From contig CAMHEZ010000023.1 of assembly GCA_946184295.1 (NCBI GenBank), forward strand, positions 1 to 35,453: a stretch of DNA of 35,453 bases, written 5' to 3'. The notes beneath the pieces were generated by a model that did no database searches, was not told the origin of the DNA, and saw only the letters and a program-made list of their open reading frames with translations. Source of the stretch: an uncultured Clostridia bacterium. GTDB lineage: Bacteria > Bacillota > Clostridia > Oscillospirales > Acutalibacteraceae. Numbering within the stretch: position 1 is the stretch's first letter; each line of letters begins with the position of its first letter. Both the position numbers and the translations under genes were made by a program. Below are positions 16,572-19,739 of this stretch, one piece after another.

Positions 16572-19500
16572 TTAATCACTGCTTTTCATGTAGCCAAGGT
16601 CCATCAAACGCTTAAGTGCGTTTTCACTGCCGTTGTCGGCGGCGATTTTGTAGAAACGGTAGGCCATGTCGTCGTTTTTCTCGATGCCGATGCCGTTTTC
16701 ACAGCAGAAGCCGATGTTGAACTGGGCAGCGACGTTGCCGTTGCGGGCGGCCTTGCTGTACCAGCGCACCGCCTCGGTATAATTGGCGGGAACGCCGTTG
16801 CCGCTGATGTAGCAGTTGGCCAGCGCGTTCTGCGCGTCGGCGTAGTCCTGATTGGCGGCGGCGAGATAGAGCTGGAGGGCGCGGGAGAAATCTTTTTCCA
16901 CACCCTGCCCCAATTCAAAGCACACGCCAAGGTGATAAATCGCGGCGGCGTTGCCCTTTTCGGAGGCACGCACGAACCACTTCACGGCTTGCGCCTCATC
17001 TTTTTCCACACCTTTGCCGGTGCGCAGGCAGACGCCGTATTGGGTCTGGGCGTTGGAATGTCCCTGTCTGGCGGCGGAACGGTAAAGCTCAGCCGCTTCC
17101 GCGAGATTCTGCGTCACGCCGAGGCCCTTTTCATACATACGGGCAAGATTGAACTGTGCGTTGGCGTTGTCGCGATTGGACGCGAGAATGTACCAATGCG
17201 CCGCTTTGACATAATTCTGTTCCACACGGTCGCCCTGCTCATAGCTCAGACCAAGCTTGTACTGTGCGTCCGCATTGCCCTGTTCAGCCGCTTTCATCAG
17301 AAGCTGTGTTTTGATATCGACCTCTTCCTCTTTCTTCATTTCCTCTGACGTGACATGAGAATCCAAAAAGTCTGAGGTGTTGTCGGAAGTGAGCGTGGGT
17401 GCGTGATAGCGGCTGTCGGGAATCGAGATAAATTCGGGCTGTATCTGCGGCGCTTCAAACGGGTCGCTGCTGAAAGCGTTAAATTCCTCTACGGGCGCGG
17501 GGGCCGGTTCGGGCGGGTCAACAGGTTCCGGGGGGACAACAGGCTTTGGTTCCGCGAAGAAGCTTTCGCCGTTCCATGCGCTGTCGCTGTCCATATCGGC
17601 CAGAATATTGGTGGAGAAAAATTCATACGAATTCATATCCGAATCGGCAAATTGCTCTCCCCATGTCGGTTCCGGTTCGGGTTCCGGCTCCGGTTCGGGT
17701 TCCGGCTCAGGCTCAGGCTCCGGCTCAGGCTCCGGCTCCGGTTCGGGTTCCGGCTCAGGCTCAGGCTCCGGCTCAGGCTCCGGCTCCGGTTCGGGTTCCG
17801 GCTCAGGCTCAGGCTCCGGCTCCGGTTCGGGCTCCGGTTCGGGTTCCGGCTCCGGCTCAGGTTCGGGCTCTTCAACCACCACGGGGACCGGCGTGACAAT
17901 GACAGGCTCTTTTTCCGGTTTTTCCGGCTCGGCTGTTTCTACAGCGACCACAACGGGCCTGACAAGTTGTTTCGTCGTTTCCTCTATGGGTTCGTCCTCC
18001 ACATCTGTCGGCTGAGATTCCTGCGGAGCAGTGGGGGAGGGCTGCGGTCTGGATTTGAAAATCCGGCTCGGTCTTCCGAAGGGACGCGGTTCCGCAAAGT
18101 TTTCGTCCACGGGATATTCAATCGTGATGCTCTCGATGGTATCATCCAGCGGCAGATACAGGGCAAACTGCTTTTCATACAGAGCCTGCGCCACGGGCTT
18201 TTCGGGAATCGAAGGCATTTCGGGTTCTTTCGGAGGCTCCTGAAGGGGCGGAGTGGATTCCGGCTCGGGTCGGGTGGTAAAATGCCATGCTTTCCGATTG
18301 GTCCGGGCGCGCATCTTGCGGCACATTTCTTCCCAAATCTCATCCTCGCTTTTTACGTCCGGTTCCGGTTCGGGAATCGGTTCCGGCTCGGGTCGGGTGG
18401 TAAAATGCCATGCCTTCTGATTGGTCCGGGCGCGCATCTTGCGGCACATTTCTTCCCAAATCTCATCCTCGCTTTTTACGTCCGGTTCCGGCTCGGGAAT
18501 CGGTTTCGGCTCAGGTCGGGTGGTAAAATGCCATGCTTTCCGATTGGTCCGGGCACGCATTTTGCGGTACATTTCTTCCCAAAGTTCTTCCTCGCTTTTT
18601 ACGTCCGGTTCCAGCTCGGGAATCGGCTCGGGTTCAGGAATGGGATCAAGTTCAGCAATCGGTTCAGGTTCGATACGTTCCGTCCGTTCGTCAAGAATGA
18701 TAAAGTTGGAACCAAGAAAATCATTGTATACGGTAGGTGCTTCTAAGGCATCAAATTCGTAAACCGGTTCGGGTTCCGGTTCAGGAATGGGTTCCGGCTC
18801 AGGAATGGGTTCCGGCTCAGGAATGGGTTTCGGTTCAGGCTTTTCCCGTATGATAGGAACGGGGGTGACAATGACAGGTTTTGGCGGTGATACAGTTTTT
18901 ATCGGTTCTTTTTCCGGGCCGGTCCAATAGACCCAGCCGAAGGGACGGCGGTCCAGCTGTGAAGCGAAGATATCCTCACCGCTGATACTGTCTTCGGGCT
19001 CGGAGGAATTTTCCTGCCGGACAAATACCGCCGGAGATTCCGGCTCGCGGGAGATTTCCTGTGTGAACAATAGAGGCTCTTCGTCAATTGCCTCGGGTGC
19101 AACTTCATTAATATCCCAGTCGGCCGACTCGTCATCAGGCAGGGCAAATTCATCTGTATCGTCGAATTGGTTGAAGACATTGTTATCCGTTTGGGCGTCG
19201 TCTTCTTCGTTAAATTCGTCAAAATCGTCGATTTCATCAAATTCGCCGTACTCATCAAGCTCGTGAATTTCATCTGCTTGATAATTTTTTGCTATCAGAT
19301 TATTGATAATTTCCGGCGGCAGCTTGTAGATGTCCAGATAAGGGCGCAGCTCTGCGAGAATGTCCTCAGACTGATACGCCATAAAGAGTGTGTAATTATT
19401 TTTGCAGTCGCCAAAGGCCATGCCAAAGTTTTTGTCGTCCAGACAGACGCACATTTTATCCAGACTGCGCATGGGTACAGCAATCCTTACGGTATCCTTG

Positions 19501-19739
19501 ATGAGACGGGACTTGGCAGCCGATTTGGAATAGAACAATATCAGCGCGGCGGAACGGGTAAGCCGCTCGATGTTGATGTTCCGATAGCGGTCGTCAGTTT
19601 CATAATCGTCATCGTACCAGACATTATAGCCCTCCTGACGCAGCGCTCCGACAATCGGAAGAACCTTGTCCGCGTCCTGCGAGCAATACTGTATGTATAT
19701 ATACGGATAGGGATTGTATTCCGGAAAGAAATCGCTCAT
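16572..19739 (-). CDS. TIR-like / acidic and Pro-Glu repeat linker / SEL1-repeat protein
   Basis: This 1055-residue protein has three parts. Residues about 12-135 look like a bacterial TIR domain ([45 protein letters not shown]). At the position where NAD-cleaving TIR domains carry glutamate (KDE type), it appears to have Thr83 (KDT), so enzymatic activity is doubtful. Residues about 140-800 are a low-complexity linker: an Asp/Glu-rich patch, Pro-Glu runs, three 41-residue repeats, and a Glu-Pro dipeptide tract (about 622-690). Residues about 810-1046 hold six SEL1 (TPR-like) repeats, for protein binding. No signal peptide or membrane segment is present, so it is probably a cytoplasmic scaffold. 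ATG 19739 is preceded by GAGAGGGG and a good promoter. No neighbouring effector gene is obvious. Confidence 0.85.
17668..17873 (-). repeat. Glu-Pro dipeptide tract with a 48-bp higher-order period
   Basis: On the coding (minus) strand this encodes about 34 Glu-Pro dipeptides. On the plus strand, the six-base unit varies between GGCTCC, GGTTCG, GGTTCC and GGCTCA, and the pattern of variants itself repeats every 48 bases: GGTTCGGGTTCCGGCTCAGG recurs at 17692, 17740 and 17788. This indicates recent duplication of 16-residue blocks. Confidence 0.9.
18263..18631 (-). repeat. Three tandem 123-bp (41-residue) repeats
   Basis: The marker GTCCGGG recurs at 18301, 18424 and 18547, an exact 123-base period. 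Each unit encodes a DVKSE-x-E segment, [19 protein letters not shown], then TTRPEP and a Pro-Glu run. The Trp/Arg-rich core contrasts with the acidic surroundings and may be a short binding motif in triplicate. Confidence 0.9.

Follow-up and report, generated by a model that had tools for sequence, protein, structure and literature searches.

The TIR domains studied in bacteria are mostly read as immune NADases, and a clostridial gene in which a TIR domain is joined to SEL1 repeats raises the question of whether it encodes such a defence enzyme or a protein of the ordinary life of the cell. The gene, here called TIR-SEL1, lies in a stretch of 35,453 nucleotides from an uncultured Clostridia bacterium (contig CAMHEZ010000023.1, positions 1 to 35,453), which we refer to as the window. 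In our reading, to which we give a probability of about one half, TIR-SEL1 is a cytoplasmic non-enzymatic scaffold or adaptor of this clostridial genus, and its features suggest an everyday scaffold of the cell rather than an enzyme of defence. Our literature search among open-licence PMC papers found no paper title on a bacterial TIR-SEL1 protein; the terms TIR and SEL1 occur together in nine papers, among them PMC7159879, PMC3710099 and PMC12931631.

Architecture of the TIR-SEL1 protein

One gene on the minus strand (19739..16572) codes for a protein in three parts, namely a TIR fold, an acidic, Pro/Glu-rich disordered middle of 662 residues, and a SEL1 solenoid. Features of the locus are the following:

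16572..19739, minus strand: TIR-SEL1 gene, 1055 aa (ORF; orthologues in genus genomes)
19305..19739, minus strand: TIR domain, residues 1-145 (Pfam, AF2, VIA-align, alignment)
19491-19493, minus strand: codon of Thr83 (alignment with the catalytic TIR position)
17319..19304, minus strand: disordered acidic Pro/Glu-rich region, residues 146-807 (pLDDT mostly below 50; composition)
18258..18626, minus strand: Trp/basic motif in three 123-bp copies, with Trp387, 428 and 469 (TRF; orthologues; model)
18102..18158, minus strand: DDTIE..TI.YP.DE island, residues about 528-546 (alignment)
17667..17870, minus strand: (Pro-Glu)n tract, residues about 624-691 (TRF)
17547..17639, minus strand: NSYEFF..NIL.....SDS.W.GESFF island, residues 701-731 (genus-wide profile matches; model)
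16575..17318, minus strand: SEL1 solenoid, residues 808-1055 (Pfam Sel1; fold)
19783..19812, minus strand: perfect sigma-70-type promoter-like site, TTGACA-N18-TATAAT (sequence; 17/17 upstream regions)
19861..21243, plus strand: spoIVB (PDZ and peptidase S55), divergent neighbour, ORF limits mechanical (Pfam; synteny)
15628..16329, minus strand: AIM24 family gene, downstream neighbour (Pfam; synteny; promoter-like box of its own)

The original prediction had combined a TIR-like domain, an acidic and Pro-Glu linker, a triplicated motif and SEL1 repeats in one protein, and Pfam, TRF and composition confirmed this architecture. Long ORFs on the opposite strand (16548-17348 and 17403-18746) were set aside, since it is the minus-strand frame that is conserved. 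No hydrophobic segment was found in the protein (largest 19-residue mean 0.8) and no signal peptide was seen by eye; with no export signal in view, it is presumably cytoplasmic. Its NCBIfam matches were all under the family cut-offs.

The middle (residues 146-807) contains 19% Pro and 20% Glu and has a net charge of -126. In an end-to-end alignment of 11 proteins, ten of them complete (window included) while that of G001 runs off its contig, three elements of the middle were invariant: DDTI, twelve positions in the NSYEFF island and, in the last Trp motif, its Trp; DDTI is altered in a G004 fragment, which lies outside these 11. The EAFPDF and NPPPSEV boxes occur in 7/11 proteins and are absent from the window protein, and the unit of the repeat tract varies among species, being (EP)n, VEEPEI or QPEPVP. 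The middle is an otherwise variable, disordered region with conserved islands. The 41-residue Trp/basic unit is present as three near-identical 123-bp copies (94% matches, TRF), and this triplication was found only in the window protein among the 11 compared; the ten others, all complete or nearly complete, have a single copy each. At the Trp motifs helices were modelled (383-396, 425-436 and 465-477) at a pLDDT of about 50; a helix in the NSYEFF island (705-714) was modelled at pLDDT below 50 only, and another (516-524) falls outside the conserved islands.

TRF also reported two other tandem repeats in the window, a 99-bp repeat at 31826-32131 (3.1 copies, 92% matches; His/Asp-rich by eye) and an 18-bp repeat at 3-240 (13.2 copies, 92% matches), located at the window edge just before the gene for a LytR-type protein. 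Elsewhere in the genome, an 802-aa ORF (G000:C2, L061:8416-10824), inspected by eye, has what appears to be a membrane segment, together with a Pro-Glu tract and a tail rich in Asp.

At the C-terminal end, Pfam placed Sel1 in six stretches (E 3.4e-56), and both tandem Sel1 repeats and an alpha-solenoid, the marks of SEL1 proteins, were found. The SEL1 part is kept in all ten complete proteins and was detected in 18/18 genus genomes at E 7.5e-88 or better, and no homologue without SEL1, the case named as telling against the original prediction, appeared among them. In two assemblies, G002 (L092) and G016 (L091), the SEL1 reading frame is broken, which may reflect assembly errors or decay.

The catalytic position of the TIR domain

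The TIR_2 match in Pfam spans residues 14-89 and scores 32.6 bits against a cut-off of 28, and both the AF2 model and VIA-align bore out the earlier view that the N-terminus is a TIR fold. The same view placed Thr83 at the position of the NAD-cleaving Glu, which in TIR NADases lies in helix C, and this stood: of the 17 sequences whose TIR could be read (window included), 8 have Thr at position 83, 8 have Cys and 1 has Ser, and the aligned Glu is absent in 17/17. Catalysis in all TIRs examined needs this Glu, according to passages of PMC10022894; therefore, the TIR part of TIR-SEL1 is probably not an NADase, as judged from sequence. The main caveat is an active site displaced by one residue, since position 82 is acidic in 16/17 sequences (Glu in 12, Asp in 4 including the window, Asn in 1), and this caveat is weakened because the residue is also Asp and Asn. 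Among 21 other TIRs, in an alignment that is not clean around position 83, column 83 held Glu in 7 and another residue in 7 (Phe in five TIR-K proteins, described below, one Gln and one Gly), while the remaining 7 were gapped at that column and had their Glu two columns further along. Overall, the earlier reading, in which a Glu-less TIR joined to SEL1 serves for binding, is supported, binding instead of cleavage being the presumed part of it.

AbTir, PdTIR and Thoeris ThsB have the TIR fold in common with TIR-SEL1 and differ from it in that TIR-SEL1 carries Thr, Cys or Ser at the aligned Glu position in 17/17. A phmmer search of the TIR part against PDB gave no match below E 0.048, and a TIR profile search reached a ThsB at E 0.12, a match in which Glu was aligned with both 82 and 83 and which is too weak to choose between them. 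The ThsB_TIR score in Pfam was 12.3 bits against a cut-off of 21.2. Unlike in Thoeris, the neighbours of TIR-SEL1 are spoIVB and AIM24; no Thoeris effector adjoins it, and a scan of 19 further ORFs, out of the 98 in the window, found none. The genome of the window contains four other TIR_2 matches and no PF01582 match above cut-off. One ORF of this genome (G000:C1, L059:6650-8302) has a C-terminal TIR with Glu at the catalytic column and adjoins a dehydratase-like ORF (by eye).

Inheritance, selection and genomic setting

With the TIR part as query, 16/17 same-genus genomes besides that of the window matched at E 2.1e-34 or better; only weak matches were obtained in G016 (1.5e-10), which shows no orthologous TIR half, and in the non-genus genome G028 (2.4e-9), and there was none in 41 of the 42 genomes outside the genus. 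The SEL1 part likewise reached G028 (2.5e-44) and gave nothing at 1e-30 in the other 41 non-genus genomes. A 31-residue profile of the NSYEFF island had one strong match in each of the 18/18 genus genomes (E 1.7e-14 or better) and no strong match in the 42 non-genus genomes (best 0.0057, in G020), with no further protein above noise. At E 0.001 the TIR profile found 7 of 398 phylum genomes, own genome included, and the two strongest of the others showed leucine-rich-repeat-like sequence by eye. The loci of 16 relatives are assigned to Clostridia, Clostridiales, Ruminococcus sp. or Bacillota, and at E 0.001 neither the 50,697 phage records nor the 72,556 plasmid records searched gave a match to the TIR part.

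The TIR distances followed those of the neighbouring SpoIVB (r = 0.86, 17 taxa, 0/5000 permutations as high); computed without permutations, the correlation of SEL1 was 0.70 with SpoIVB (16 taxa) and 0.47 with AIM24 (11 taxa). Mean distances were 0.45 for TIR and 0.35 for SpoIVB (17 taxa), 0.18 for SEL1 (16 taxa) and 0.17 for AIM24 (11 taxa). For the closest pair, G001/G006, dN/dS was 0.069 (TIR), 0.039 (SEL1), 0.024 (NSYEFF), 0.026 (DDTIE), 0.22 (Trp motif) and 0.21 (whole middle); for G008/G015 the corresponding values were 0.114, 0.024, 0.097, 0.097, 0.088 and 0.141; and for window/G006 they were 0.172 (TIR), 0.077 (SEL1), 0.035 (NSYEFF) and 0.37 (Trp motif), the rest being saturated, as were the islands and the whole middle in both pairs with G007. 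These values therefore indicate clear purifying selection on TIR and SEL1, and NSYEFF was below SEL1 in two of the three unsaturated pairs (0.024 v 0.039, 0.097 v 0.024, 0.035 v 0.077). The Trp motif was the weakest island in 2/3 pairs and in the closest pair is constrained no more than the rest of the middle.

The divergent neighbour was spoIVB in 16/16 fetched loci and in the window, and AIM24 lies downstream on the same strand in 12/15 testable genomes, being absent there in G008, G009 and G015 (only 2.2 kb of downstream region covered there; G001, G006 and G014 outside the test). The survey of homologues for conserved neighbours, proposed together with the original prediction, thus gave spoIVB in 17/17 (window included) and AIM24 in 12/15, and no conserved partner gene that would name a process was present among the TIR-SEL1 loci compared. 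The other neighbours scanned with Pfam are of housekeeping types; among their products are two tRNA synthetases, SecA, a LytR-type protein, a guanido-phosphotransferase, an HhH-GPD repair protein, a dCTP deaminase-like protein and a GH3 enzyme.

TTGACA-N18-TATAAT, with identical hexamers and spacer, was found upstream of the gene in 17/17. A 12/12 match in the window upstream region was reached by 1 of 300 simple shuffles, and across the whole 2.3-Mb genome the same box pattern (spacer 17 or 18) had 106 sites versus 1 for the reversed control. The promoter-like box of AIM24 had 10/12 matches, and the same scan gave 5 such boxes, a count that departs from that in shuffles by no more than about 1.5 sd. 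TIR-SEL1 itself is probably made constitutively.

TIR-SEL1 behaves apparently as a vertically inherited genus-core gene, and the genus-wide motif, the distances that track SpoIVB, the constant spoIVB and promoter, the frequent AIM24 and the lack of phage or plasmid matches to the TIR part together disfavour a mobile NADase defence gene. To the earlier reading we thus add two points: the disordered linker carries conserved motifs, and the gene appears to be of the genus-core type, not a mobile immunity gene.

Candidate partner and possible roles

TIR-SEL1 may have a partner in TIR-K, another TIR protein found throughout the genus. In the genome of the window it has 840 aa (G000:C28, L058:3928-6450:-) and consists of a TIR, a long disordered-looking chain and a Lys-rich tail with a conserved C-terminal MNLSEILFG motif. 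Matches to TIR-K occur in 18/18 genus genomes and matches to its tail profile in 17/18 (E 2.1e-12 or better; none in G004), with no further protein above noise; MNLSEILFG is invariant in nine profile rows and in 11 full frames read from 12 loci, the twelfth, G010, being left out of that reading. In G008 and G015 one DegV-family gene, directly downstream of TIR-SEL1 and on the same strand (14 bp away in G008; L055:6014-6844 and L056:1276-2106, respectively), separates it from TIR-K. This adjacency probably stems from one rearrangement that moved a TIR-K/DegV block, because DegV adjoins TIR-K also in G005, G007, G010 and G012 (by coordinates), and as a sign of partnership it is suggestive only. 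A complex coacervate of acidic TIR-SEL1 and basic TIR-K was considered and is a weak idea: the overall charge of TIR-K is close to neutral (-2), and only the final 250 residues are basic (+14).

That the two proteins work together as a two-part TIR scaffold is a tentative proposal to which we attach a low probability: TIR-K occurs in 18/18 genus genomes and its tail motif in 17/18, TIR-K also has no Glu at the aligned column (5/5 aligned) and G008 and G015 place the genes one DegV apart, but TIR-K was not found in the other fetched TIR-SEL1 stretches, window included, and the adjacency has the probable origin given above. In its extended form, two core Glu-less TIR proteins, acidic TIR-SEL1 and TIR-K, would co-assemble through their TIRs as a housekeeping scaffold that holds clients on disordered chains with their motifs, and this too is improbable at present, as is the accompanying idea that such a scaffold would be a bacterial counterpart of MyD88/MAL assemblies outside immunity.

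Most studied bacterial TIR proteins are immune, and some act on host Toll signalling. An anti-phage or abortive infection role for TIR-SEL1, in which SEL1 would sense a signal and the TIR would cleave NAD through a shifted Glu/Asp82 or recruit another TIR enzyme, is unlikely in our view: it could draw on the acidic residue 82 in 16/17, on the four other TIR_2 matches of the genome, at least one of which (G000:C1) has the aligned Glu, and on Avs5, whose TPR/Sel1 repeats form the likely sensor part (passages of PMC12931631), but residue 82 is not invariantly Glu and is Asp in the window, an orthologue exists in 18/18 genus genomes with TIR distances that track SpoIVB, the neighbours are of housekeeping type, no phage or plasmid record matches the TIR part, and PADLOC gave partial matches only (PtuA on one SEL1 stretch, 3.9e-6; SAVED_TIR, 0.0041). 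A scaffold related to sporulation or the envelope and tied to spoIVB and AIM24 seems equally doubtful, since the constancy of spoIVB (16/16 fetched loci and window) and AIM24 (12/15) is set against a perfect sigma-70-type box in 17/17, no hydrophobic segment or Pfam sporulation domain in the protein, and an AIM24 gene that has its own promoter-like box and is missing from that place in G008, G009 and G015. A TIR mimic acting on the Toll signalling of an animal host is very improbable; such bacterial proteins exist, two of 16 relatives' records name goat stomach compartments and the RUG-named relatives are presumably rumen genomes, but neither a signal peptide (by eye) nor a hydrophobic segment (largest mean 0.8) was found and the gene is of the genus core with a consensus promoter.

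In the scaffold or adaptor reading that we prefer, the TIR domain would have lost NAD cleavage, as we infer from position 83, and be kept as a module for TIR-TIR or TIR-partner association, the Pro/Glu-rich acidic chain would be a flexible spacer with short docking motifs (Trp/basic, DDTIE and NSYEFF), and the strongly conserved SEL1 solenoid would bind a putative client protein in a presumed process of ordinary cell biology. The low confidence of the helices and the mixed dN/dS values weaken the motif argument a little and leave the main argument as it was.

MyD88 carries a death domain; TIR-SEL1 is bacterial, has SEL1 in place of the death domain and a 662-residue disordered chain, and its self-assembly is putative. 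It shares with MyD88 and MAL/TIRAP the TIR fold and, subject to the residue-82 caveat, a TIR without the NADase Glu, and the parallel that we propose is a role as a scaffold that does not cleave NAD, non-enzymatic TIR scaffold assemblies being described in a review (PMC8635717). Passages of PMC9926476 describe two polar hubs of Caulobacter: PopZ, whose disordered middle is proline-rich and negatively charged and which has a short client-binding helix and a self-assembling end, and PodJ, which has a Sel1 domain and a disordered region. TIR-SEL1 may resemble both in build; its composition and disorder fit PopZ, the pLDDT of its modelled helices does not exceed about 50, homology was not found, its Pfam matches include no PopZ family (Pfam may hold no PopZ model), and the Sel1 domain of PodJ is periplasmic. 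HcpC (1ouv), LpnE (6deh) and the Oxalobacter Sel1 protein (6ok3) differ in that SEL1 is here fused to a TIR in a protein without visible export signal and presumably cytoplasmic. The Actinobacteria TIR-TPR proteins (group 6) are also large, with N-terminal TIR and C-terminal helical repeats, but have TPR, not SEL1, and passages of PMC7075850 on them describe no comparable linker.

If this reading is true, a conserved, apparently vertically inherited Glu-less TIR in a core protein would mean that bacteria also employ TIR domains purely for assembly in the ordinary life of the cell, and TIR-SEL1 would offer a concrete, testable hub case in which conserved short motifs lie within a long acidic disordered region.
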